A stretch of DNA of 49,440 nt. It comes from a virus. The notes beneath the pieces were generated by a model that was not told the DNA's origin, ran no database searches, and saw only the letters and a list, made by a program, of their open reading frames with translations. The stretch covers positions 1-49,440 of IMG/VR virus record IMGVR_UViG_3300024308_000035. One strand, given 5' to 3'. The position numbers and the translations under genes were made by a program. Positions 3,017 to 46,754 of this stretch are shown one piece after another. Each line of letters begins with the position of its first letter. Position 1 is the first letter of the stretch.

Positions 3017-3022
3017 CGAATG

Positions 3023-3045
3023 GCGCCCCTAACCGGGCGCTTTTT
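3023..3045 (+). terminator. Intrinsic terminator after the primase gene
   Basis: A 6-bp perfect GC stem (GCGCCC / GGGCGC) with a 6-nt loop and five T residues. It is followed within 4 nt by a new promoter, so it insulates the primase unit from the next operon. Confidence 0.85.
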
Positions 3046-3048
3046 CGT

Positions 3049-3077
3049 TTGACAGGAAATAAAACGGGCCGCATAAT
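3049..3077 (+). promoter_or_regulatory. Sigma70-type promoter, cassette copy 1
   Basis: TTGACA at 3049-3054, a 17-nt spacer and CATAAT at 3072-3077. It belongs to the dispersed cassette family with CG before the -10 and GCGC after it (here separated by GA). The leader carries AACGAAACGGAGTTA, which supplies the ribosome-binding site for the gene at 3111. Confidence 0.85.
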
Positions 3078-3110
3078 GAGCGCACATTCAACGAAACGGA
3101 GTTACTTAAA

Positions 3111-3287
3111 ATGGCTAATTTCACTAACGGTCAAGAAATCAAAGTAATCAGCGGCACCCACGTCGGCAAGACCGGCTGGTTCAACAAGGAAAATGCCCAC
3201 CGTGCGGGTAAGTGCTTCATTTGGTTCAAGACCGTCAACGTCACCGGCGCTCAAGTGAGCTTGACGGACCTGGAGGCGGCGCAGTGA
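3111..3287 (+). CDS. Small KOW-like protein
   Basis: A 58-aa protein that is the first gene after the promoter at 3049, with ACGGAGTTA as ribosome-binding site. Residues 8-24 (QEIKVISGTHVGKTGWF) resemble the KOW loop of ribosomal L24 and NusG: a KVISG strand, the G-x-x-G-K-T-G turn and an aromatic. The rest is a short beta-rich tail. KOW modules bind RNA or protein, so a transcription or translation role is possible but not shown. It overlaps the next gene by 4 nt (GTGA). Confidence 0.75.
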   Translation: MANFTNGQEIKVISGTHVGKTGWFNKENAHRAGKCFIWFKTVNVTGAQVSLTDLEAAQ

Positions 3288-3466
3288 GCGACCTAACCTG
3301 GGCGGTCGGAGGGCGCGGACCGGCCCGCAGCGCGGTCGTCTTTTGTAGTCACTGTCGGGCGGTGCTGTCGCGGCCCCTCCCCTTGACCGCAGTGTGCGAG
3401 GAGCTGGCCTTGGTGGCTGAAACCCATTTCTGCACACCGGCGAAACCCTGGCGGCCGGCGCCATGA
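3284..3466 (+). CDS. Small hypothetical early protein
   Basis: A 60-aa protein of unknown function. The GTG start overlaps the previous stop, and GGAGG lies upstream in the preceding gene. A CxxC pair (FCSHC) plus a later Cys could bind a metal. It sits in a chain of six overlapping small genes, all driven by the promoter at 3049. Confidence 0.6.
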   Translation: MSDLTWAVGGRGPARSAVVFCSHCRAVLSRPLPLTAVCEELALVAETHFCTPAKPWRPAP

Positions 3467-3651
3467 CTGACAATCAAACCATCGCCGAGCAATGCGCCCA
3501 GGCCGACAACCCGTACGAAGCAGCCGTCGCGGTCTGCGCATACACGTCGAAGCCGTCGGCGCATCGCAAGGTGTTCATTTTCGCAGACCGCAGCACACTG
3601 GCGTTTGCGGTTACCTATCAAGTGGCTGAAACGGGAGTGATGGCGCCATGA
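3463..3651 (+). CDS. Small hypothetical early protein
   Basis: A 62-aa protein with an ATGA overlap to its upstream neighbour. The sequence is an alanine-rich helix followed by a KVFIFADRST strand-like segment. No family recognised. The tight spacing on both sides supports it as a real gene. Confidence 0.6.
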   Translation: MTDNQTIAEQCAQADNPYEAAVAVCAYTSKPSAHRKVFIFADRSTLAFAVTYQVAETGVMAP

Positions 3652-3866
3652 CTGACAGGCCTGAATGGGTTAAGTGCATCAACGATGCGCACCTCGACAA
3701 CACCGGGCTATCTTGGTGCGGTTGTCGAATCGAAACGTTCGAATTCTCGTTCGTCGACATAGGCCACGCAGCGATGAACGGGCGAAATGGCGGCCGCCTG
3801 GTAGCCTGTCCGGAGTGCGTATCCGCAATTTGTGAGGCGCTGCGCAATGGGCAATCCTTCGACTGA
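3648..3866 (+). CDS. Small cysteine-containing early protein
   Basis: A 72-aa protein with two Cys pairs (WCGC near residue 25 and CPEC near residue 55). This is a likely zinc-binding arrangement of a phage zinc-ribbon type. ATGA overlap with the previous gene. Function unknown. Confidence 0.6.
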   Translation: MTDRPEWVKCINDAHLDNTGLSWCGCRIETFEFSFVDIGHAAMNGRNGGRLVACPECVSAICEALRNGQSFD

Positions 3867-4038
3867 TCATGCCGACAGCGCCCAGGCGCGCGAGTGGGAC
3901 CGGCCGACCGCCGGTCCTGCTCAGGACGATTGGCTCGATCCGACCGCGCCGAACGAGTATGAGGCGCAATGCAAACGAACAGCCGCTGCACGTGTGCGGG
4001 CGGCGATTGAGAAACTGGAACGGAGATTTATGCGATGA
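3847..4038 (+). CDS. Small hypothetical protein
   Basis: A 63-aa protein starting inside the end of the previous gene (20-nt overlap). Acidic, Pro/Ala-rich N-terminus and a basic amphipathic C-terminal helix (AARVRAAIEKLERRF). The 4-nt overlap with the following gene supports the reading frame. No family recognised. Confidence 0.5.
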   Translation: MGNPSTDHADSAQAREWDRPTAGPAQDDWLDPTAPNEYEAQCKRTAAARVRAAIEKLERRFMR

Positions 4039-4436
4039 AAGCACCGACTGGAAAACTTGCGTTGGCTTACCGGTCACTCGCTGTGGCGGAAGAAAGAGCA
4101 GAACGGTTTATGGCCGAGCGGGACGCACTGCAAGCGCTGCTGAACGAGCGGGACGGTCAAATTGATCAGCTCGGGCAAGTGCTCGGCGAAATCCTGGTAG
4201 CGGCGGGCATGATTCGGGGTGACGTGCCGTTGAGTGGACCGCAGTTGCTACAGTTCGGCAGGCAGTTCTGCGAGAACTTGCCGGGCCCTCTGGATGAACG
4301 GGCCCTTTTCGAAAACTGGCTCCGTAGCCGTCCGCACGTTTTGAATGTCGGTTTCAACAAAGAGTCCGCTCGCTATGTATTGCAGGAAGATGAGGACTGC
4401 TGGCAGGCCTGGCAAGCACGGGCGGCGCTCAAATGA
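4035..4436 (+). CDS. Coiled-coil phage protein with WQARAAL C-terminal box
   Basis: A 133-aa protein. Residues 15-60 form a heptad-rich coiled coil (AEERAERFMAERDALQALL). The last 45 residues (ERALFENWL ... CWQAWQARAALK) match a short domain that recurs at the C-terminus of the protein at 43422-44342. The two genes probably share a mobile phage domain. Function unknown. Confidence 0.65.
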   Translation: MKAPTGKLALAYRSLAVAEERAERFMAERDALQALLNERDGQIDQLGQVLGEILVAAGMIRGDVPLSGPQLLQFGRQFCENLPGPLDERALFENWLRSRPHVLNVGFNKESARYVLQEDEDCWQAWQARAALK

Positions 4437-4945
4437 GCCGCCTGGTACGCATGGCCCGACTGTTCGCGCAGGCCGCACACGGGGCCACTGGGCAGGTGCG
4501 GCGGTACACCGGTGAGCCGTACATCGAGCACCCGGCAGAGGTCGTCGCACTGCTCAAGCGGGCTGGGGTGACCGACGATGCGATGCTGGCCGCCGCGTGG
4601 TTGCATGACGTGGTTGAGGATACGCGCATTGACCACTCGACAATCAACCGTGTATTCGGCCCCGGCGTCGCCTGGCACGTACACGACCTGACAGATCAGG
4701 TGCCTGCTTTCTCGGGAAACCGCGCATACCGAAAAGCCCGAGAGTGTGAGCGGCTCGCCCAAGTGCACCCGCTTTCGCAGTCGGTGAAACTCGCCGACCT
4801 GATCAGCAACACGCGGTCGATCCGTGAGCACGACCCGAAGTTCTGGCCGGTGTATCGGGCTGAGGCTCTGGCGCTGCTGGACGTACTGCGAGACTGTTCA
4901 CACCCGGCGCTCTGGCGTCAATTGGAAGAGGAACTGCAGGAATGA
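4433..4945 (+). CDS. HD-domain (p)ppGpp hydrolase, MESH1/SpoT-like
   Basis: A 170-aa single-domain protein. The HD motifs are in order: H16, H33 in YIEHPAEV, H58-D59 in AAWLHDVVEDT with E62-D63, and D122 in VKLADLISNT. This is the MESH1/SpoT-hydrolase signature, with no synthetase or ACT/TGS domains. The family removes the 3'-pyrophosphate of (p)ppGpp using Mn2+. In a phage it would relieve the host stringent response and keep nucleotide synthesis and ribosomal-type promoters active. It is in the early operon and overlaps both neighbours by 4 nt. Activity on another 3'-phosphorylated nucleotide is possible. Confidence 0.85.
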   Translation: MSRLVRMARLFAQAAHGATGQVRRYTGEPYIEHPAEVVALLKRAGVTDDAMLAAAWLHDVVEDTRIDHSTINRVFGPGVAWHVHDLTDQVPAFSGNRAYRKARECERLAQVHPLSQSVKLADLISNTRSIREHDPKFWPVYRAEALALLDVLRDCSHPALWRQLEEELQE

Positions 4946-5127
4946 AAGAACTGTACATAGCGTGCGAGAAATCCCGAGACGAGATGCGGTTAGACCTTGA
5001 GGGTGATTCGATCCTGATAACGGTCGAGGCTAGCCACGGTGAACAGGCGTCTGTCTTCCTTGAGAATCCCGACACGGTCGCAGAGCTGCGCGATGCGTTG
5101 GACGAATGGCTGGAGCGAAACGCATGA
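4942..5127 (+). CDS. Small hypothetical early protein
   Basis: A 61-aa acidic protein. Predicted beta strands (RLDLEGDSILITVEA) are followed by a C-terminal helix (TVAELRDALDEWLER). Overlaps its neighbours by 4 nt on both sides. No family recognised. Confidence 0.6.
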   Translation: MKELYIACEKSRDEMRLDLEGDSILITVEASHGEQASVFLENPDTVAELRDALDEWLERNA

Positions 5128-5348
5128 ACCGGGCAGAGCGAAAGGAGGCAGGGGAGGCGTTCAAGGGCATTCTGACAGCCCCCGACCGCATTCAGGCCGT
5201 GAAAGCCCTGGAAAACGCAGGCTTCGGCAAAACGGATTGGCTCAAGGCCGAACTGAAGGCCGCGCAGGGGCTACTAGCAGAACGCAACGCCGAAATCGAA
5301 AAGCTGCGCGCGACTATTCGTCAACTGATGAAGGACCTGATGCAATGA
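5124..5348 (+). CDS. Small coiled-coil protein
   Basis: A 74-aa, mostly helical protein with a C-terminal coiled coil (LLAERNAEIEKLRATIRQL). The start is the ATG that overlaps the upstream stop. AAAGGAGG-like sequence sits downstream of this start, not upstream, so translation is probably coupled. Function unknown. Confidence 0.6.
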   Translation: MNRAERKEAGEAFKGILTAPDRIQAVKALENAGFGKTDWLKAELKAAQGLLAERNAEIEKLRATIRQLMKDLMQ

Positions 5349-5614
5349 AAATCCCCGAACTGTGCTTTTACGATTTCAACCAGCAGCACGCGCCGTGCCG
5401 GGTCGACACATTCCACGAGCGGCACCCGTCGCCCGAGCCGCGCTATACGATGGTGGAGGTGGGGCCCGAGGCGATCCCGGCGCTTGAGCAGCACTGGCAG
5501 ACGGGACGGCCGGTAGAACTGCTGGGGGTTGTTTTTGAATTTGCCGTCGTGGCAAAAACGCGAAAACGGCTTTTTCGGGCAGATCGGTACGTGGTGAGGG
5601 GCGTACTAGGGTAG
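5345..5614 (+). CDS. Hypothetical protein, last gene of the early block
   Basis: An 89-aa protein. ATGA overlap with the previous gene fixes the start. Aromatic and acidic N-terminus (LCFYDFNQQHAPCRVDTFHE) and a beta-rich C-terminus (VELLGVVFEFAVVAKT). No family recognised. The long regulatory gap begins right after it. Confidence 0.6.
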   Translation: MKIPELCFYDFNQQHAPCRVDTFHERHPSPEPRYTMVEVGPEAIPALEQHWQTGRPVELLGVVFEFAVVAKTRKRLFRADRYVVRGVLG

Positions 5615-5958
5615 GGATGAGGCCGGTCTAGGTAGAGATGGTACGGGACTGCACGATTCCATCTCTACCCGCCGGAGCCCAGTGATTCTGCGGGCTCGCG
5701 TATGTCTTATAGGTATGGAATATATACTTCTATATTGATAAGTTATGATATATACATAATGTAAACGGTGCATAACCCCAATAAGTGGTTTACCAGAAGC
5801 GTAGAAAAACCACCTCGCATCTCTCCCTTACCGCAAGACTATCGACCAAAGCCCCGTAAATGCTGAGGGAGAGATAGGGTTGAGATCCCTTATTGTAACC
5901 ACACCTATCCCTTTCAGACAGCGCGTGTTAGAATTCCGCAAAATCTAGGAGTTTTTGC
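5615..5958. other. AT-rich intergenic regulatory region with nested inverted repeats
   Basis: No gene of credible size. It contains: an 11-bp perfect inverted repeat (GGTAGAGATGG 5631-5641 / CCATCTCTACC 5659-5669); GAGCCC...GGGCTC near 5675-5697; a strongly AT-rich run at about 5700-5765 with several -10-like hexamers; GTGGTTT/AAACCAC at about 5785/5807; and a 12-bp near-perfect repeat (ATCTCTCCCTTA 5819-5830 / TGAGGGAGAGAT 5864-5875). The segment at 5704-5732 resembles the one at 20093-20120. This could be an operator region or a replication origin; neither is proven. Confidence 0.6.
5926..5934 (+). promoter_or_regulatory. Extended -10 promoter for the HNH/terminase block
   Basis: TGTTAGAAT fits TGn-TANAAT and has no convincing -35. 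Similar elements precede the neck/tail block (20174) and the lysis cassette (34359), suggesting a late promoter class. Confidence 0.5.
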
Positions 5959-7040: not shown

Positions 7041-8433
7041 CGAAATCGCGACGTACCGCACGGACCTACTGGCGTACGCGCAGTACATGTTCCGTGCGCG
7101 CAAGGGCGCCGAGCTGAAGTTCAACGCGCACCAGGTGACGATATGCAACGCCCTGGAGCGCGTCGTACTGGGCCGTACGAAACGGCTGATCATCAACGTA
7201 CCGCCGCGCTCGGGCAAAACAGAACTGGCCGTGATCAACTTCATGGCCTGGTGCATGGGCAACTGGCCGGACTGCGAGTTTATCCACGCCTCCTACGCCA
7301 AGCGCTTGGCCACCACCAACACCTGGGCGACCCGGGCACTGGTCGAGCACGAGGCTCACGCCGAGATATTCGGTGCGCCGGACTTGCGCAGCGACTCGAA
7401 CGCCAAGGACGAGTGGCGCACCGCCACGGGCGGTATCGTCTACTCCACCGGTGCCGACGGCACGATCACCGGCTACGGTGCTGGCAAGATGCGCGAGACG
7501 TTCGGCGGGGCCATCATCATCGACGACCCGCACAAGGCCTCCGAAGCGACCAGTGATACGATGCGGCAAAACGTGATCGATTGGTTCAGCACGACGATGG
7601 AGAGCCGGAAGAACAGCAACGACACCCCGATCATCGTGATCATGCAGCGCCTGCACGAGGCCGACCTGTCGGGCTGGCTGCTGGACGGCGGTAACGGCGA
7701 GCACTGGGAGCATGTCTGCATCCCGGCCATTACCGACGACGGCGAGTCGTTCTGGCCCGAACAGTTCGAGCTGGCCAACCTGCAGCGGATGGAAAAAGCT
7801 AACCCGTACGTCTTCGCCGGCCAGTACCGCCAGCGCCCCGCGCCGATCGGCGGCGGCCTGCTCAAGGACGATTGGTGGTCGTACTACGACGAGGCCCCAC
7901 CGTTCACGCATCGCCTGATGTTCGCCGACACGGCCCAGAAGACCGGCCAGGAGAATGACTATTCGGTGTTCCAATGCTGGGGCTACACGCACGACGAAAA
8001 GGCGTATCTACTCGACCAGTTGCGTGGCAAGTGGGAAGCGCCACAGCTGCTCACCCAGGCCCTGGCCTTCTGGAACAAGCACAAGGCACGTTGGCCGGAC
8101 GGTTCGGTACTGCGAGCGTTCAAGGTCGAGGACAAATCGAGCGGCACGGGCCTTATCCAGACGATGAAAGCCCGACCGCACCAAGTGCCAGTGGTCGCCA
8201 TCCAGCGCGAGAAAGACAAGGTCACCCGAGCGTACGACGTGGCGCCTATCATCGAGACGGGCCGTGTGTTCCTGCCGGCCAACGCGACGTTCCTGTCCGA
8301 ACTGCTGGCCGAAACGACGGTGTTCCCGAACGGCAAGCATGACGACCAGGTCGACCCGCTGCTAGACGCCGTCGACGAACTGGTACCGGAGAGCAAACCG
8401 CAGTCCCGAGTATTCATGCGAAAACGCGGTTGA
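7024..8433 (+). CDS. terL: Terminase large subunit
   Basis: A 469-aa protein. The ATPase domain has Walker A PPRSGKT at 60-66 and Walker B IIIDD at 164-168. The RNase H-like nuclease has FADTAQ with D302 and a C-terminal HDDQVD at about 439-444. It drives ATP-dependent packaging into the prohead and cuts the concatemer. ATG 7024 (MPLTADEI) is chosen over upstream in-frame starts because these would lie deep inside terS. A cassette promoter begins at its stop codon. Confidence 0.92.
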   Translation: MPLTADEIATYRTDLLAYAQYMFRARKGAELKFNAHQVTICNALERVVLGRTKRLIINVPPRSGKTELAVINFMAWCMGNWPDCEFIHASYAKRLATTNTWATRALVEHEAHAEIFGAPDLRSDSNAKDEWRTATGGIVYSTGADGTITGYGAGKMRETFGGAIIIDDPHKASEATSDTMRQNVIDWFSTTMESRKNSNDTPIIVIMQRLHEADLSGWLLDGGNGEHWEHVCIPAITDDGESFWPEQFELANLQRMEKANPYVFAGQYRQRPAPIGGGLLKDDWWSYYDEAPPFTHRLMFADTAQKTGQENDYSVFQCWGYTHDEKAYLLDQLRGKWEAPQLLTQALAFWNKHKARWPDGSVLRAFKVEDKSSGTGLIQTMKARPHQVPVVAIQREKDKVTRAYDVAPIIETGRVFLPANATFLSELLAETTVFPNGKHDDQVDPLLDAVDELVPESKPQSRVFMRKRG

Positions 8434-8458
8434 CAGTCGGTACAACTAACCGTATTCT
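8430..8458 (+). promoter_or_regulatory. Sigma70-type promoter, cassette copy 2
   Basis: TTGACA at 8430-8435, 17-nt spacer, TATTCT at 8453-8458, flanked by CG and GCGC. The leader contains AACGAAACGGAGTTATCGAA, ending at the start codon at 8491. Confidence 0.85.
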
Positions 8459-8490
8459 GCGCTCACACCTAACGAAACGGAGTTATCGAA

Positions 8491-9294: not shown

Positions 9295-9501
9295 ATGCCC
9301 CTCTTCAACGTAACGCACCAACCGTCGGGCCGCACGCTGCATATCCGGGCGGCCTGCCGGACCTGCGCCCGGCGTATTGCCGTCGAGCACATCGCGCTGA
9401 CCGGCCCGACTGCCGAGTGGCGCGACCCCGAACAGACACGGGTCGATTTCGTCGGTTCGGGGAACGGGCCGTCTGGGGTGTTGACAGACACCGAAGCGTG
9501 A
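9295..9501 (+). CDS. Small cysteine-containing hypothetical protein
   Basis: A 68-aa protein with C-x2-C at residues 21-24 (CRTC) in an arginine-rich segment. The 3' end contains the next cassette promoter (9481-9509). No family recognised. Confidence 0.55.
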   Translation: MPLFNVTHQPSGRTLHIRAACRTCARRIAVEHIALTGPTAEWRDPEQTRVDFVGSGNGPSGVLTDTEA

Positions 9502-9509
9502 CGCATACT
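9481..9509 (+). promoter_or_regulatory. Sigma70-type promoter, cassette copy 3
   Basis: TTGACA at 9481-9486, 17-nt spacer, CATACT at 9504-9509 inside a perfect CGCA-TAC-TGCG dyad. The leader AACGAACGGAGTTA precedes the ATG at 9542. Confidence 0.85.
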
Positions 9510-9541
9510 GCGCCCACTTACCAACGAACGGAGTTACCCGC

Positions 9542-10097: not shown

Positions 10098-10607
10098 ATG
10101 ACCCGATTCGAACAGTTCCAACAAAACGTGCAGCGCTGGGCGACCGAGCGCGGCATCTACGAGCACAGCACCGCCCTGGCGCAGGCACTCAAGGCGGTTA
10201 GTGAGGTCGGCGAGATGTGTGATGCGGTGATCAAGAACAACCGTGCAGAGGCGCAGGATGCGGTCGGCGACGTAGCAGTTTGCGTCGTCAACGTTGCGCA
10301 CTTCTTGTCCCATACGTTCGACCCTGACCACTTTGACCCCGATAACCTGCTGAGCCATGATCATTTTCGTGCGGCCGCTGAGGCTGCCCGAGTGGTCGGC
10401 ACGCTCTCGCACCAGGTTTCTACAGTCCACAACATGATGGCTAGCTTTGACAATGACGGGTGCGACCGGGCAATCACCGCTTTGCGTGAGTTCTGCGTGT
10501 GCCGCGGCCTCGACTTCGACGACTGCTGCGAGTCGGCCTGGCAGACGATCAAGGACCGCAAAGGCCGCATGGTCGCCGGCGGGGCGTTCGTTAAGGAGGG
10601 TGAGTGA
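10098..10607 (+). CDS. MazG-like nucleotide pyrophosphohydrolase
   Basis: A 169-aa protein. The MazG metal site is visible as E36-x-x-E39 in VSEVGEMCDAV and D54-x-x-G-D58 in DAVGDVAVCVV. The family hydrolyses (d)NTPs and related nucleotides to monophosphates. The second half (about 75-130) is an insertion or extension that is not typical. Together with the (p)ppGpp hydrolase it suggests control of the nucleotide pool during infection. Confidence 0.75.
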   Translation: MTRFEQFQQNVQRWATERGIYEHSTALAQALKAVSEVGEMCDAVIKNNRAEAQDAVGDVAVCVVNVAHFLSHTFDPDHFDPDNLLSHDHFRAAAEAARVVGTLSHQVSTVHNMMASFDNDGCDRAITALREFCVCRGLDFDDCCESAWQTIKDRKGRMVAGGAFVKEGE

Positions 10608-19620: not shown

Positions 19621-20026
19621 ACCAGGCTTGTTCTTCCGAGCGACTGTCTCGGTGGTAGCCGTAAGTCGGGCCGTGGACGACAAACCCATTCGGGAGACGC
19701 ACGCGATTTTCCGGCTCATCGCGGTAAGCGTGCCAACCATCAACCCAAGCCTTAGCGTCCTTACGGCGCGCAAAATTGGCAGATCCGCTGCGGGTGTTAT
19801 TGCCGCTGTCGTATCCGCCAGCTACGCGCTTTCCAGTGGCGTCGTACACGTACCAGCAAGCGACATGGTTGTGATTGGCAAACTGACCCCAGCAGTAGAG
19901 CCGCCAAATGTAGGCTGGCTCGTTTTCAATGCGGAAGCCGCGATAGTTCATCGTCTTGCCCTCCGGGGCGTTGTTCGTTTCGATGAGCACATAATAGGGC
20001 CGCTTTTCTGCACTGTCAATAGGCAT
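19589..20026 (-). CDS. Hypothetical protein, first gene of the minus-strand accessory cluster
   Basis: A 145-aa protein rich in aromatics (NYRGFRIENEPAYIWRLYCWGQF, WYVYDATGKRVAGGYDSG, DAKAWVDGWHAY). It looks like a compact beta-sheet domain. An internal Met at residue 26 is an alternative start. No family recognised. It is the promoter-proximal gene, downstream of the AT-rich segment at 20090-20160. Confidence 0.6.
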   Translation of the reverse strand: MPIDSAEKRPYYVLIETNNAPEGKTMNYRGFRIENEPAYIWRLYCWGQFANHNHVACWYVYDATGKRVAGGYDSGNNTRSGSANFARRKDAKAWVDGWHAYRDEPENRVRLPNGFVVHGPTYGYHRDSRSEEQAWFETGYCAAQR

Positions 20027-39390: not shown

Positions 39391-40541
39391 GCTTTGAATG
39401 CCTTCTGTATGAGGGAGTAGTCTGCAACACCGAGCTTCAGCTTGCCCGGAATGCGCTCAATGTACGGCGCGATTAGCGCACCGTCAACACCTTTTTTCTT
39501 CAATTTGTCGCGGCACTGCGCAGGCGTATCGACGGCCAGGGGCTTGCGGAAATCGACGCCCAGCAAGTCACCGAAACCGGCAACGTTCTCGGGCGCCACT
39601 TTCCATTTCTCGGAGCCGTTGCCGCGCCGCATTTCGTAACCTGGAACGGCATGCCCGGTCGTGATTTCGTGTTCGGCCTGTTCTGCCAGCGCGGCCACCC
39701 GGGCTTGCAGCGTCGCCAGCTGCTGCTCGGCCCACATCAGTTCGGTCGCCAGGTCGTGCCCGGTCAGACCGAGCGGCATAGCGGTACCGGCGTAGGCTTT
39801 CGCCCCATCACTGGCCCGCTTGAACGTCGCACAGCCTCGGCGCGCTGGGCAGTACTTGCAGTTTTCACCAACTCGGGTATGCGTCTGATCCATTACCGCT
39901 GCACGCAGGCGATTCCACATTGCCCGCAGTGCACCAGTGGTCGTATCCCAGGTACGGATCGGGCCGCCAGCCGTGTAACAGCGCGGCTGGATAATGTGGA
40001 ACACGACGGGCAGCTCCTGCTCGATCCACTGGTTCGCTTTGCCCTCGGCGCGGAGGCGGTCCAGTACGCCAGCCGCGTAGCAAGCCAACTGCCAGTTTTC
40101 AACCGGGCTGACCTCCAGGTGCCCGTACTTGTAGTCGAAGACGTGGAGCACGGTGCCGTCGAAGTACGTGCCGTCTGGGGTGCCGAACACCAGGATTTCG
40201 CCCGTGCTCTCGTCAACACCGAGGCTAGGCATCTGCTCGCGCTGCTCGAAGCGGCACACGCTCATACCTTTGAGCTGGTTTACCGTGCGGAAAACGTGGT
40301 TGTAGTATTCGCGACCGCCGTCGATCATCGCCTCGTCAACGGCCCAGCCATTGGGCGTGAGCGTGCCGATAGCAGGGGTGCCAACGGTCAGCATCTGAAA
40401 CGCTACCCAGTGCGCCGCGTCGCCCTCGGCTGCGGCTTCCCCGTCGCCAATGTCGGGGAATTGCTCGGCAAGGCCTACCGACCCCGGGCAGTACACCCAG
40501 CGGTCGGCGGAACTCGGAGCATGGCGAGCGTGGGCTGTCAC
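39387..40541 (-). CDS. DUF2800 RecB/Cas4-like nuclease
   Basis: A 384-aa protein. ARHAPSSADRWVYCPGSVGLAE at the N-terminus; AAAEGDAAHWVAFQML. The PD-(D/E)XK core is GTPDGTYFDGTVLHVFDYKYGHLEVSPVENWQLACYAAGVL in pieces, with D in LHVFDYKYG. Cysteines in NCKYCPARRGC suggest a Cas4-like iron-sulphur cluster. It probably makes 3' overhangs for phage recombination or processes replication ends. It is in one operon with the SSB-like protein. Confidence 0.8.
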   Translation of the reverse strand: MTAHARHAPSSADRWVYCPGSVGLAEQFPDIGDGEAAAEGDAAHWVAFQMLTVGTPAIGTLTPNGWAVDEAMIDGGREYYNHVFRTVNQLKGMSVCRFEQREQMPSLGVDESTGEILVFGTPDGTYFDGTVLHVFDYKYGHLEVSPVENWQLACYAAGVLDRLRAEGKANQWIEQELPVVFHIIQPRCYTAGGPIRTWDTTTGALRAMWNRLRAAVMDQTHTRVGENCKYCPARRGCATFKRASDGAKAYAGTAMPLGLTGHDLATELMWAEQQLATLQARVAALAEQAEHEITTGHAVPGYEMRRGNGSEKWKVAPENVAGFGDLLGVDFRKPLAVDTPAQCRDKLKKKGVDGALIAPYIERIPGKLKLGVADYSLIQKAFKA

Positions 40542-41401: not shown

Positions 41402-41440
41402 GGGGTGTTTCTCCGTGGTTGATTAGTTGCTACGGGGCGC

Positions 41441-41469
41441 ATAGTGCGGTAAGGTTAGCCACCTGTCAA
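41441..41469 (-). promoter_or_regulatory. Sigma70-type promoter, cassette copy 4 (minus strand)
   Basis: On the minus strand: TTGACA (41469-41464), 17-nt spacer, CACTAT (41446-41441) inside a CGCA-CTA-TGCG perfect dyad. It drives the recombination/polymerase operon. The plus-strand helicase must use another promoter in this 87-bp gap (a weak TTGATT at 41419 is possible). Confidence 0.82.
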
Positions 41470-41488: not shown

Positions 41489-43387
41489 ATGAACGCACCG
41501 TTTCTATTAAAGCCGCTCGCTGCGGCGATACGACCGCGCCCGTACCAGGCAGAACTCATCGCGCGGATTTACGCTGCGTGGCAGGCCGGGGCTGAAAACG
41601 TAATGGCCGTGCTCGCCACCGGTGGTGGTAAGACGGTCGTGCTGTCCGGCGTGTTTAGCCAGCACATCGGCGCGGGTATGCTCGTCGCGCACCGCCAGGA
41701 ACTGGTTGGCCAGATATGCGAATCGCTGAACAAAGCCGGCCTGCGGTTCCGCATCCTGGCGCCGAAGAAAACCATCGCGATCATCACGAAACTGCTGCTC
41801 AAAAAGCACGGCGTCTGCCATTACGACCCGACTGCCGAGCTGGGCGTCGCCGGCATCGATACCCTGCTGAACACCCCGACCAGTGCCCTCGGCAAGGCCC
41901 ACCGCGCTTGGCTCCAGCGGGTCACGCTCGGGGCGATCGATGAAAGTCATCACGTTACCTTTGACAACAAGTGGGGCCGCGGTATGGGCCTGTTGCCCGG
42001 CTGCAAGCGCTGGCTGTTACCCACCGCCTCACCGTGCCGGGGCGATGGCCGTGGCTTGGGGCGCAAGTTCGACGCGAAGGGCGAGCGCCTGCCGGGCTAC
42101 GACGGCATGGCTGACGTTATGGTCGAGGGGCCAGGTACGGGCGACCTGATCGGCATGGGGTATCTGACCCCGTTCAAGGTCGTATGCGCGAAAGTCAGCG
42201 TCAACTATGAGCAGGTAAAGATCGGCGCGTCCGGTGAGTACGTCGCCGCCCAACTGGTCGCCGCCGAGGAACACAGCGGGCTGCTCGGCGATATCGTCGA
42301 GACGTACCAGAAATATGCACCTGGTAAACGCGGCGTGTGCTTCGTGTCCAGCATCAAGCGCGCTGAGGAACTGGCCGAGCGGTTCACCGCAGCGGGCGTA
42401 CCCGCCCTGGCGCTGGATGGCACCACCGACGACGAGATTCGGTCGGACGCTAAAGACCGGCTCGAGCGCGGCGAGCTGAAAATGTTGGTAAACGTGGACC
42501 TCTTCGGCGAGGGCTACGATTTACCGGCGATCGAGGTCGTGATTCTCGGCACCAAGACCGCCAGCTTGGGTCGCTACCTGCAGTGGTGCGGCCGGGTCCT
42601 GCGCCTACTGGTCGACTACACCGGGTACGACGACCTGACCGACGCGGGCCGACTGGAGCGTATCGCGGCCAGTATGAAGCCCTTCGGCCTGATCATCGAC
42701 CACGCCAACAACATCGTCACGCACGGTCTGCCGGACAAGCCGCACATCTGGTCGCTTGAAGGCGGTAGCGGCTCGGGCGCATCGGACAGTGACGCGATCC
42801 CGCTACGAGCCTGCACGAACCCCGGCCTGGCTCTCGTTAAACCCGGCATCGGCTGGGACGCCTGGCGTAAGGCGGGCTGGACGAACGAGCAGCTGCTGGA
42901 GCACGGCCACGCGACCGAGACGGGCATACCGTGCGCCCAGCCGTACGAGGCGTTCCTGCGTTGCTGTGAGTTCTGCGGGTACATGCCTGAGCCTAAAGGC
43001 CGACGCGACCCTGCCGAGGTCGAGGGCGACCTGGAACTGCTTGACGAAGAGACCATGGCTGCGATCCGGGCCAGTTACCTGGAGGCCCGGCAGAGCATCG
43101 AGCATTACCGGTCGGCGATCGCCAGCGGCGAGCATGGGCGCATGAACCACACGATGGCCTCGGCCAACGTGAACCGCCACCGCGAGAAACTGGAGGCACT
43201 GGCAGAACTGGACGACGCCATGGCGCGGTTCGGTGGCAAGTACCGGGCGCGCGGCGAGTCCGACACGCAGATTCAGCGCCGGTTCTATGCGACGTTCGGT
43301 ATTGACGTGCTGACCGCCGCGTCACTGAAACGTGCGGACGCCGAGAAGTTGCGCGGAAAGATTGACAGCCTATTAAACGGGGCGTAA
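41489..43387 (+). CDS. Superfamily 2 DEAD/DEAH-box helicase
   Basis: A 632-aa protein. A Q-like motif (RPRPYQAELI), Walker A ATGGGKT at 43-49, and DESHH at 151-155 (motif II). GVCFVSSIKRAEELAERF opens the second RecA domain, with GEGYDLPAIEVVILGTKTASLGRYLQWCGRVLR as motifs V-VI in pieces. Like the phage helicases related to UvsW/RecG-type branch migration proteins. C-terminal 190 residues contain Cys residues (CCEFCGYMPEPKGR) that may form a zinc site. It likely remodels replication or recombination intermediates. Confidence 0.85.
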   Translation: MNAPFLLKPLAAAIRPRPYQAELIARIYAAWQAGAENVMAVLATGGGKTVVLSGVFSQHIGAGMLVAHRQELVGQICESLNKAGLRFRILAPKKTIAIITKLLLKKHGVCHYDPTAELGVAGIDTLLNTPTSALGKAHRAWLQRVTLGAIDESHHVTFDNKWGRGMGLLPGCKRWLLPTASPCRGDGRGLGRKFDAKGERLPGYDGMADVMVEGPGTGDLIGMGYLTPFKVVCAKVSVNYEQVKIGASGEYVAAQLVAAEEHSGLLGDIVETYQKYAPGKRGVCFVSSIKRAEELAERFTAAGVPALALDGTTDDEIRSDAKDRLERGELKMLVNVDLFGEGYDLPAIEVVILGTKTASLGRYLQWCGRVLRLLVDYTGYDDLTDAGRLERIAASMKPFGLIIDHANNIVTHGLPDKPHIWSLEGGSGSGASDSDAIPLRACTNPGLALVKPGIGWDAWRKAGWTNEQLLEHGHATETGIPCAQPYEAFLRCCEFCGYMPEPKGRRDPAEVEGDLELLDEETMAAIRASYLEARQSIEHYRSAIASGEHGRMNHTMASANVNRHREKLEALAELDDAMARFGGKYRARGESDTQIQRRFYATFGIDVLTAASLKRADAEKLRGKIDSLLNGA

Positions 43388-43390
43388 TGT
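43362..43390 (+). promoter_or_regulatory. Sigma70-type promoter, cassette copy 5
   Basis: TTGACA at 43362-43367, 17-nt spacer, TAATGT at 43385-43390 (overlapping the helicase stop codon), flanked by CG and GCGC. Leader AACGAACGGGGTTATCGAA ends at the ATG at 43422. Confidence 0.83.
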
Positions 43391-43421
43391 GCGCTCAATA
43401 TTAACGAACGGGGTTATCGAA

Positions 43422-44342
43422 ATGAGTGATGAATTTGTGATGGTGCCGCGTAAGCTGACACGCGAAATGCTGGACGAGCTAACGAATGGCGACTCCGAAA
43501 AGAACAACGTCATGAAGTTACGCTGGGGACAGGCTTTGAAGGTTGCTCCAGCCCAGCAGCACCAGGGCGAGCCGGTGGCGCTTCCTGAGCGTCTCGATCC
43601 GCCAAAAAATGGGGAAAGCCATCAACTCTTGCCGCGCTATCTGGTATGGAACGCCTGCCTCGACGAAATCGCCAAGCTTGGGCCGCTGTTTAGCCGTCCT
43701 GTGCAGGGTGAGCCGGTGGCGTGGCTTGACAGAGCCTCTGGAGCGATATGCACCAATCAGCTTAAGCCGCTTATGGGTGAGGGGTTTGAGACCCCGCTGC
43801 ACCCCCACGCCGACCCTGGCGAGGTTGAGCGGCTGCGCAACTGCCTGCGCACTGAAATTGAAGCTGGCGATAGCTGGAAGCGCGAAGCAGAAGACCTGCG
43901 CGCCCAACTTGCCGAGGCGCATGCGCTGCTGCGTCGAATTGGCAAACAGTGGAACGTTCCTGATCCAACAGACGAGGATCATGCTTGTTGGGATGCAATA
44001 GAGTCCGCCCTATCAGGCAGCGCAGAGCCGAGCGCGCCGGCTACCCAACCGATCAACATGAAAACCATGATGCAGGCATATGAGCAGGTTGATCACAAGG
44101 CGCTGCTACACGGGACTTCTAACTGGTGTTCCGCCATGGCTACAGCATTGCGTGGCGCGCTTAACGTAGAGGCCGGCGCGCCGGTTGAGATCGACGAGCG
44201 GGCGGCGTTTGAAATCGAATTCAAGAAGATAGGCAGGCCATTAACCCGTGCCGACTACGACCCTGAGGCATACGGGAATGCATTCGATGACGGGGCATGG
44301 ACTGGATGGCAAGCCCGCGCCGCCCTGGAGCGCAAGCCATGA
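43422..44342 (+). CDS. Hypothetical multi-domain phage protein
   Basis: A 306-aa protein. N-terminus FVMVPRKLTREMLDEL and two GEPVAW/GEPVAL boxes are common in phage proteins of unknown function. A coiled coil lies at about 135-175. The C-terminal domain (AAFEIEFKKIGRPL ... WTGWQARAALERK) shares the WQARAAL box with the protein at 4035-4436. Start fixed by the conserved cassette leader. Confidence 0.65.
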   Translation: MSDEFVMVPRKLTREMLDELTNGDSEKNNVMKLRWGQALKVAPAQQHQGEPVALPERLDPPKNGESHQLLPRYLVWNACLDEIAKLGPLFSRPVQGEPVAWLDRASGAICTNQLKPLMGEGFETPLHPHADPGEVERLRNCLRTEIEAGDSWKREAEDLRAQLAEAHALLRRIGKQWNVPDPTDEDHACWDAIESALSGSAEPSAPATQPINMKTMMQAYEQVDHKALLHGTSNWCSAMATALRGALNVEAGAPVEIDERAAFEIEFKKIGRPLTRADYDPEAYGNAFDDGAWTGWQARAALERKP

Positions 44343-44677: not shown

Positions 44678-45198
44678 CCCCGTTCGATCAATGGGCCATG
44701 CGCCACAACATCCCGTTCGCCGCGCTGCTCGAACTGCAGCAGATGTTCTTCCCACCCGGGCTGGCCAGCGAGCCGGATCCTGACGGCCGAATGGAAGACT
44801 ACGCCCAGTCGCTGATCCGTCGTGAGGCACCCCGTCGGGGCTGGTGGCTCGGGCGGAATAACGTCGGGGCGTATAACGCTAAGCCGTCGAAAAAGTGCGA
44901 GGCATGTGGCCATGTTCCTAAAGGCCCTTCCCGCTGGGTTCGGTATGGCCTAGCCAACGACTCGGCACAAATGAACGAGGCGGTTAAATCGGCAGACCTG
45001 ATCGGCCTGCGTCCTGTCCTGATCACCCCGGCGCACGTCGGCACGACCATTGGCCAGTTTGTTTCGATCGAAGCGAAGCACCCGGGCTGGAAACCCGGCG
45101 AGGATTCGAAGCGCGAGAAAGCACAGTTCGCATGGGCCGGGCTGATCCGCAGCAAGGGCGGCCTGGCGGTGTTCAGCACGGGGGAATTGCCGGAATGA
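44674..45198 (+). CDS. VRR-NUC domain nuclease
   Basis: A 174-aa protein. The VRR-NUC core lies at about 90-165: SRWVRYGLANDSAQ, SADLIGLRPVLIT, GQFVSIEAKHPGW with the E-x-K pair, then KREKAQFAWAGLIRSKGGLAVF. A zinc knuckle-like CEACGH precedes it. The family resolves branched DNA. ATGA overlaps on both sides link it to the methyltransferase. Confidence 0.78.
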   Translation: MTPFDQWAMRHNIPFAALLELQQMFFPPGLASEPDPDGRMEDYAQSLIRREAPRRGWWLGRNNVGAYNAKPSKKCEACGHVPKGPSRWVRYGLANDSAQMNEAVKSADLIGLRPVLITPAHVGTTIGQFVSIEAKHPGWKPGEDSKREKAQFAWAGLIRSKGGLAVFSTGELPE

Positions 45199-45632
45199 CC
45201 GCGTTTTTGTTACAGGGCGATTGCCTGGAAATGATGAAACTGATCCCGGATAGGTCGGTTGATATGGTGCTATGCGATTTGCCGTACGGCACAACGGCCT
45301 GTGCGTGGGACGCAGTGATCCCGGTAGACCTGCTGTGGGCAGAGTACCGTCGAATTCTTACCCCCACTGGGACAGTGGTACTTACCGCAAACCAGCCTTT
45401 CACTACGGCTATCACTGCGCCTGCGCTGGACCTCTTTAAGCACGCCTCGGTCTGGGTTAAAAACCGGCCTACTGGCCCTCAGCATGCGAAGAACCGGCCA
45501 ATGGCGAAGCATGAGGACGTGTTAGTTTTCTCAAAAGGTAAGATGGGCCACGCTGCTCAACTGGGCGAAAAGCGCATGACTTACAACCCCCAGGGCGTTA
45601 CAGACGCCGGCCTTAAAAAAAGTGGCTGCTAA
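45195..45632 (+). CDS. DNA methyltransferase, N-terminal part (frameshifted)
   Basis: 145 residues. FLLQGDCLEMMKLIPDRSVDMVLCDLPYGTT in pieces carries catalytic motif IV (DLPY, residues 28-31) of beta-class N4-cytosine/N6-adenine methyltransferases, with the target region KNRPTGPQHAKNRPMAKHEDVLVFSKG. The frame ends after a run of seven A residues at 45615-45621. The AdoMet-binding part continues in another frame from about 45622. Removing one A would restore a single protein of about 250 aa. Either a real frameshift, a slippage signal or an assembly error. Confidence 0.75.
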   Translation: MTAFLLQGDCLEMMKLIPDRSVDMVLCDLPYGTTACAWDAVIPVDLLWAEYRRILTPTGTVVLTANQPFTTAITAPALDLFKHASVWVKNRPTGPQHAKNRPMAKHEDVLVFSKGKMGHAAQLGEKRMTYNPQGVTDAGLKKSGC

Positions 45633-45948
45633 AGGTTCACACTCTAGCTTGACAGGCGCTCGCCCTAATCAGGTGGGTCGAGAATACATGGCACAGACAG
45701 GGTTCCCGCATACGATCCTGAATTTCGATAAGGAAGAGGATCACGTCCACCCGACCCAAAAGCCTGTAGCGCTGATGGAGTACCTAATCCGCACCTACAC
45801 CAACGAAGGCGAGACGGTGCTAGACAACACCATGGGCTCGGGCACGACGGGTGTCGCGTGTAACAACACCGGCCGGGATTTCATCGGCATTGAGCGTGAC
45901 CCGGAGTACTTCAAGATCGCCCAGCGGAGGATTTACGGAATTGACTAA
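45622..45948 (+). CDS. DNA methyltransferase, C-terminal part (frameshifted)
   Basis: Open frame of 108 codons. VHPTQKPVALMEYLIRTYTNEGETVLDNTMGSGTTGVACNNTGRDFIGIERDPEYF, in pieces, contains motif X (TQKP) and motif I (DNTMGSGTTG), the AdoMet site. It probably has no start of its own (the GTG at 45622 has no ribosome-binding site). It would be made only by slippage at the A7 run or not at all. Its 3' end holds the next cassette promoter. Confidence 0.7.
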   Translation: MAAKGSHSSLTGARPNQVGREYMAQTGFPHTILNFDKEEDHVHPTQKPVALMEYLIRTYTNEGETVLDNTMGSGTTGVACNNTGRDFIGIERDPEYFKIAQRRIYGID

Positions 45949-45970
45949 TAGCGCCAAACAAGCGCACAAT
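45941..45970 (+). promoter_or_regulatory. Sigma70-type promoter, cassette copy 6
   Basis: TTGACT at 45941-45946, 18-nt spacer, CACAAT at 45965-45970 in a perfect GCGCA-CAA-TGCGC dyad. Leader contains AACGAGACGTTATCT before the ATG at 46005. Confidence 0.8.
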
Positions 45971-46004
45971 GCGCCCTAATGTACTAACCAACGAGACGTT
46001 ATCT

Positions 46005-46667
46005 ATGACCATCACCCGCGACGACGTGCTAGCCGCCGCCCAGCGTGTGGGCGAACGACCGACACAGGCGGCGGTGGCCCGAGAACTTGGCATCACGCGC
46101 CACCAGCTTGTGCGGCTCATCACGCCCGAGGAACTGCGCTCCGCCGTAGGCGCACCGGTGCCGCCAACCGACGTATCAACCGAGCAGATGCTGCAAGCCG
46201 CCGAGACCCTGGCCGAACGGTCGGGGTTCGACAGCGTTACCCTGGCAGCCCTTGGCGCCTATTTCGGCCGGTCCGAGAAGTGGGCCGAGAAGCGTGTACG
46301 CATGTCCGCCGTGTGGGCTAGGTTGAGGGCTCGCGGTTTCACCGGCTCGCGCATGTCGGGCGACGACCGCCGCGCGCAGATTCACGAGGCGGCCCGTGCT
46401 ATGGGTTTCAAGGATCTGACGTACTCGGCGCTGGCCCGGGCGTGCAACTGCTCTGACGTGCTGGTGCGCACGTACTACCCCGACCTGTCCGTGCTGGGCG
46501 AGTCGCCCGCGCCTGCCATTGGCCGCCGCGAACAGATCATCGCCACTGTGCGCGAGCTGCACGCACGGGGCGAGACGATTACCTCGGGCCGTGTGGCTAA
46601 AGAGATTGGCGTGGCCGGTTCGACCGTGCGTTACCACTTCACCGACCTGCGCGCCCTGGTCGAGTAA
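46005..46667 (+). CDS. Multi-HTH DNA-binding protein
   Basis: A 220-aa protein with three or more helix-turn-helix units: about 14-36 (RPTQAAVARELGITRHQLVRLI), about 120-150 (LTYSALARACNCSDVLVRTYY, TetR-like) and about 185-215 (ITSGRVAKEIGVAGSTVRYHF). Made as a single-gene unit between its own promoter and terminator, as expected for a regulator. It is a good candidate for the factor that binds the dyads over the cassette promoters, including its own. Confidence 0.75.
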   Translation: MTITRDDVLAAAQRVGERPTQAAVARELGITRHQLVRLITPEELRSAVGAPVPPTDVSTEQMLQAAETLAERSGFDSVTLAALGAYFGRSEKWAEKRVRMSAVWARLRARGFTGSRMSGDDRRAQIHEAARAMGFKDLTYSALARACNCSDVLVRTYYPDLSVLGESPAPAIGRREQIIATVRELHARGETITSGRVAKEIGVAGSTVRYHFTDLRALVE

Positions 46668-46696: not shown

Positions 46697-46725
46697 TTGA
46701 CGATAGAATTAACAGGGCGTATATT
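46697..46725 (+). promoter_or_regulatory. Sigma70-type promoter, cassette copy 7
   Basis: TTGACG at 46697-46702, 17-nt spacer, TATATT at 46720-46725 within GGGCG-TATATTG-CGCCC. The leader (ACAGAGGAAACGACAGT) differs from the other copies. It drives the zinc-ribbon/ThyX block. Confidence 0.82.
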
Positions 46726-46754
46726 GCGCCCATTCTTACAGAGGAAACGACAGT

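Follow-up and report, generated by a model that had tools for sequence, protein, structure and literature searches.

Stable-RNA-like discriminators in the early promoters of a phage clade that also encodes a small alarmone hydrolase

Analysis of a window of 49,440 bases, which is a whole IMG/VR virus record, revealed nine sigma70-type promoters that share a GC-rich discriminator and, downstream of one of them, a gene for a small alarmone hydrolase (SAH; Table 1). The evidence for the promoter class is solid in the clade to which this phage belongs, and promoter class and hydrolase are both retained in all seven clade members found, while the genes between them are exchanged. The original prediction had joined the two in a self-reinforcing circuit, in which lowered (p)ppGpp keeps early promoters active in starved hosts. 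Both parts are real; the circuit is hypothetical.

An unbiased scan for pairs of TTGACA-like and TATAAT-like elements showed that nearly every intergenic site continues with GCGC(C/T)C, GAGCGC or GTGCTC. The nine promoters follow the form TTGAC(A)-17/18-nAnnnT, and the six bases after the −10 element are GCGCCC at four sites, GCGCTC at two, GAGCGC at two and GTGCTC at one. A gene starts shortly 3′ of each; site 39487 lies within the end of an exonuclease gene, before the next gene. Strong −35/−10 pairs with a GCGC-type discriminator number 10 in the window, under a looser rule that counts one site beyond the nine claimed, against a mean of 0.39 and a maximum of 2 in 100 dinucleotide shuffles. 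GCGC had been expected directly after the −10 element of these promoters; as a class they are indeed far above chance, but the hydrolase promoter at 3049 reads CATAAT-GAGCGC, with A rather than C two bases after the −10 element. Judging from their elements, the promoters are probably used by polymerase, and no RNA polymerase or sigma factor was found among the phage genes scanned.

Table 1. Positions of promoters, genes and other features in the window. L numbers are handles for other phage loci; L007 is phage TPWB-08.
Feature	Position	Strand	Details
Terminator-like hairpin between Prim-Pol operon and promoter 3049	3022..3041	+	terminator scan
Promoter of hydrolase operon	3049..3084	+	TTGACA-17-CATAAT, GAGCGC, predicted start A3084; identical in L002–L005
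Small ORFs from promoter 3049 to hydrolase, all in one direction and mostly with head-to-tail overlap	3111..4436	+	content differs among relatives
Small alarmone hydrolase (SAH; HD_4, MESH1-type), 170 aa	4433..4945	+	profile, residues, fold
Promoter	8430..8465	+	TTGACA-17-TATTCT, GCGCTC, A start; 5′ of ORF 8491
Promoter	9481..9516	+	TTGACA-17-CATACT, GCGCCC, A start; 5′ of ORF 9542 and cassette with MazG-like gene
MazG-like nucleotide pyrophosphohydrolase, third cassette	10098..10607	+	PHROG 1992, E 8e-38; NCBIfam weak; Pfam no match
Promoter	19984..20019	−	TTGACA-17-TATTAT, GTGCTC, A start; 5′ of 120-aa ORF 19951-19589
Promoter-like site in exonuclease gene	39452..39487	−	TTGACG-17-TACATT, GAGCGC; upstream of ORF 39390-38404; conserved in L007 and L006 record
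Promoter	41434..41469	−	TTGACA-17-CACTAT, GCGCCC; 5′ of ORF 41401-40538 and exonuclease/polymerase block
Promoter	43362..43397	+	TTGACA-17-TAATGT, GCGCTC, A start; 5′ of ORF 43422-44342
Promoter	45941..45977	+	TTGACT-18-CACAAT, GCGCCC; upstream of ORF ending at 46667
Promoter	46697..46732	+	TTGACG-17-TATATT, GCGCCC, A start; 5′ of ORF 46755

The class is present in seven phage genomes, namely the window and six relatives. The pattern TTGACNN16-18NANNNTGNGCNC matches 8 sites each in the L002 record and in phage TPWB-08, 9 in the window and 10 in the L006 record, against 0 or 1 for the reversed pattern in the same genomes, and it has no match in Pseudomonas phage MR14, which shares the terminase. 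A set of 29 unique phage sites, for which the selection already prescribed part of the discriminator, has a 17-bp spacer in 24 cases and A as the seventh base in 26; two bases after the −10 element, 24 sites have C and none has G, and the six-base discriminator averages 92% GC. When promoters were instead chosen by −35, −10 and a downstream Shine–Dalgarno sequence and ORF, with the discriminator ignored, GCGC-type discriminators were found at 8 of 9 in the window, 3 of 3 in L006, 6 of 7 in TPWB-08 and 0 of 7 in MR14; the sole exception in the window (10333) lies inside the MazG-like gene. With the start taken at A, nearly all phage promoters have C at position −1 (gene-linked promoters: window 8/9, L006 3/3, TPWB-08 7/7). 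A terminase search revealed no distant relative with the promoter series, and a literature search for phage promoters with GCGC discriminators found none described. Several promoters of MR14 (L008) have TTGACAC and then GTCA in the spacer, a palindrome over the −35 element which suggests that control by a repressor replaces the GCGC discriminator there.

These promoters had been called rRNA-like, and comparison with bacterial promoters bore this out. Read directly, E. coli rrnB P1 is TTGTCAGGCCGGAATAACTCCCTATAATGCGCCACC, and stable-RNA promoters (rrnB P1 and bacterial tRNA/rRNA promoters) share with the phage series the GCGC core after the −10 element, GC-rich six bases, a G after the −35 element and a C shortly before the −10 element. 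A strict promoter pattern had no match in ten bacterial genomes; the pattern TTGNCA-16-18-TATANTGCGCNC was then applied to 295 genomes of the order of G034 and 274 genomes of the class of G035. The core-pattern loci precede tRNA or 16S genes in 25 of 41 cases (a tRNA within 300 bases at 16, a 16S start within 1.5 kb at 9), and 8 further loci are incomplete or masked. The corresponding figure is 2 of 30 for control promoters with a non-G discriminator, a looser control adopted after two control patterns had yielded one match each (Fisher 2e-6 for all loci, which is optimistic, since loci of related genomes are not independent). This enrichment indicates that the GCGC core is, on sequence grounds, that of the stable-RNA promoter class.

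The likeness is not complete, as spacer and start base differ. Bacterial matches have a 16-bp spacer in 24 of 41 and C or T at position 7 in 36 of 41, so that the phage promoters, with their 17-bp spacer and A, lack the combination of a 16-bp spacer and a pyrimidine after the GCGCNC core that marks most of them. Compared with stable-RNA promoters, they also have a consensus TTGACA −35 element and mRNA genes downstream, and no conserved A/T-rich element above the −35 element. A 17-bp spacer, a consensus −35 element and A as the seventh base are expected to weaken inhibition by ppGpp/DksA.

ppGpp-repressed promoters are enriched in GC-rich discriminators (PMC3293720), and C at −1 is reported to be very frequent in ppGpp-inhibited promoters (PMC7601328; also PMC8422995). 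By analogy, the phage promoters may be sensitive to ppGpp/DksA. We assume here that the host has DksA and keeps its rRNA promoters under stringent control; the best identity in a terminase-based host search was 54%, so no host was assigned. A search of the phage for a DksA mimic found no DksA/TraR zinc finger. The role of the discriminators could instead lie in promoter escape or in sensitivity to supercoiling, and not in a ppGpp response, and GC-rich discriminators do set supercoiling sensitivity independently of ppGpp (PMC8422995). We consider this fairly unlikely as a replacement, given that both properties share one sequence basis and are hard to separate; neither is favoured alone.

TGNGCNCA, conserved where the −10 element ends, could also be the operator of a phage regulator, overlapping the start site, rather than a stringency discriminator. 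It is its own reverse complement, nearly invariant and largely confined to promoters; it occurs 22 times in the window, where 16 copies are expected, and several of the 22 lie at promoters. However, the site is very short, its inner N positions are not complementary, and its T, C and A are already expected from the −10 element, the C at −1 and the start site. The GCGC core also occurs at bacterial tRNA/rRNA promoters without a phage, and we regard an operator as very unlikely.

The product of ORF 4433-4945 had been predicted to be a stand-alone HD hydrolase of the MESH1/SpoT type, and profile, residues and fold all agree. Pfam HD_4 is matched with an E value of 1e-13 (51.5 bits against a curated cut-off of 27.2) and no other domain is present; the PHROG assignment is metal-dependent phosphohydrolase, and the first sequence matches are MESH1 proteins. 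The metal and catalytic residues R23, H33, H58, D59, E62, D63, D122 and N126 are intact and invariant in 27 phage homologues; the TPWB-08 hydrolase has alanine at position 63. Since single-sequence structure prediction reached a pLDDT of 50, a 27-sequence alignment was used instead and gave an AlphaFold model with a pLDDT of 95.9. The leading fold matches are all SAH or Rel/SpoT, beginning with Drosophila MESH1 (3nqw, TM 0.87) and human MESH1, followed by the Corynebacterium and Pseudomonas SAHs. The (p)ppApp hydrolase 7smg matched the model less well, which favours a broad or (p)ppGpp substrate range for the modelled enzyme. In the cell, tRNA-3′-pyrophosphate and (p)ppApp would be as plausible substrates as (p)ppGpp, and general removal of 3′-pyrophosphates is, by analogy, the better-supported role.

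With the small alarmone hydrolases MESH1, P. aeruginosa SAH, C. glutamicum RelH and PaSpo of phage SSU5, the window hydrolase shares a single HD_4 domain, a length of about 170 aa and all metal/catalytic residues. Its identity to solved structures is about 32% or less, and it lies in an early operon of a phage, with no synthetase as partner. Between close relatives (L003 compared with the window), residues 65-118, which form the middle third of the protein, vary while the ends are nearly identical. At L002:9653-10453 the hydrolase lacks its first 20 residues and has instead an in-frame fusion to the upstream small ORF.

Promoter 3049 lies 1.35 kb upstream of the hydrolase ORF, and the operon is apparently unbroken: genes 3111 to 5614 are co-directional and mostly overlapping, the stretch from 3077 to 4433 yielded no further sigma70-like site, and terminator-like matches in the promoter–hydrolase region are no more frequent than by chance. 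This layout suggests that the hydrolase is expressed from promoter 3049. Relatives swap the genes between promoter and hydrolase (for example, L003:4000-5158 compared with 3111-4433 in the window), but promoter and hydrolase stay. Directly after the operon, positions 5620-5900 are AT-rich in a genome of 61% GC and contain two inverted repeats (GGTAGAGATGG/CCATCTCTACC and ATCTCTCCCT/AGGGAGAGAT), which could mark a replication origin.

A selected positive-feedback circuit would mean that the hydrolase evolved to relieve ppGpp-inhibited early promoters, as a switch between productive and stalled infection. Both parts are present and are retained together in all clade members found, a Prim-Pol search revealed no clade member without the hydrolase, and a MazG-like protein is encoded behind a sister promoter. 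A functional tie should, however, make promoter class and hydrolase travel together, and this was seen only within the clade, that is, in one lineage. Among the best 80 hydrolase loci in IMG/VR, the promoter pattern occurs at six clade loci and one other, and is absent from 73; many of the remaining loci have strong sigma70 promoters with AT-rich discriminators. Conversely, no HD_4 domain was found in 26 other viral records with one such promoter, many of which are fragments. The self-reinforcing circuit is thus not supported by its distribution. The hydrolase promoter also carries the less typical GAGCGC. Moreover, if ppGpp inhibits the promoter of the hydrolase, synthesis of the enzyme would be lowest at high ppGpp, that is, in starved cells, so such a loop could maintain low ppGpp but not easily start there and rescue the host. 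We therefore regard a selected circuit as distinctly unlikely. Equally doubtful is the larger idea that the early programme is wholly under host-style stringent control, with the phage's own hydrolase as the release, forming a bistable switch that reads the growth state of the host.

The hydrolase could instead be a counter-defence protein that strips the pyrophosphate added to the tRNA 3′-CCA by toxSAS enzymes of the CapRel, PhRel and FaRel2 type, or that destroys (p)ppApp. As the phage uses GC-discriminator promoters for many early genes, the position of the hydrolase behind one of them would then be incidental. PaSpo, the SAH of Salmonella phage SSU5, to which the window hydrolase is 43% identical over 154 residues, removes the tRNA modification made by FaRel2 (PMC11559606), and the SAHs of PVP-SE1 and SSU5 relieve FaRel toxicity (PMC7644958). 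SAHs are also widespread, occurring in hundreds of phages, mostly without GCGC-class promoters and with quite different ones. On this analogy, repair of toxSAS-modified tRNA would be as good a role as the promoter–hydrolase circuit. However, MESH1-like enzymes also cleave (p)ppGpp, so the activity would not be exclusive; we consider counter-defence with incidental promoter placement a real possibility, though somewhat less than probable. A RelA_SpoT synthetase domain was not found in the record, so the hydrolase is not adjacent to a small alarmone synthetase as in a toxSAS toxin–antitoxin pair. PADLOC, which lists defence proteins, gave no match and is uninformative for counter-defence.

A mechanism is proposed that combines growth-linked early promoters with a hydrolase of broader use. 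Host sigma70 RNA polymerase would read small-gene cassettes and replication genes from one uniform promoter class, whose GC-rich core (GNGCNC, with C at −1) would tie early transcription to the growth state of the host through ppGpp/DksA, supercoiling and the supply of initiating nucleotide. The operon behind promoter 3049 would supply the hydrolase, which would remove 3′-pyrophosphates, hold alarmones low after the first rounds of early transcription and possibly also repair tRNA to which toxSAS defence enzymes have added pyrophosphate. As a result, translation and the growth-linked promoters would both stay on, to what we infer is the benefit of the phage. Promoter protection is probably one consequence of the hydrolase and not the reason for its existence. 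For this explanation as a whole, our confidence is evenly balanced.

Other phages offer partial parallels. Pseudomonas phage Adele (Pakpunavirus) also encodes an SAH and a MazG-like protein, for which alarmone modulation has been proposed (PMC12846349); it differs in being a lytic myovirus of another genus, and the available text of that report does not link the alarmone idea to promoters. The lambda pR and T4 early promoters are likewise early promoters of host polymerase that have been studied with ppGpp and DksA, but no conserved GCGC discriminator series is described for them in the accessible part of the source (PMC6024815). The same source describes only modest changes of T4 infection when the host lacks ppGpp, which counts against the growth-linked explanation preferred here. 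If the promoters are sensitive to ppGpp/DksA, the clade would offer a clean natural example of viral early genes coupled to host growth via the discriminator. It would then also be a tractable system in which to ask why alarmone hydrolases are so common in phages.

No tRNA genes were found in the window. The DNA methyltransferase at 45132-45948 is present as two overlapping ORFs for its N- and C-terminal parts, which could reflect a split gene or a frameshift. The 120-aa ORF 19951-19589 on the minus strand lies antisense within the structural block and has its own GCGC-class promoter, for which TPWB-08 has a counterpart (L007:20302).
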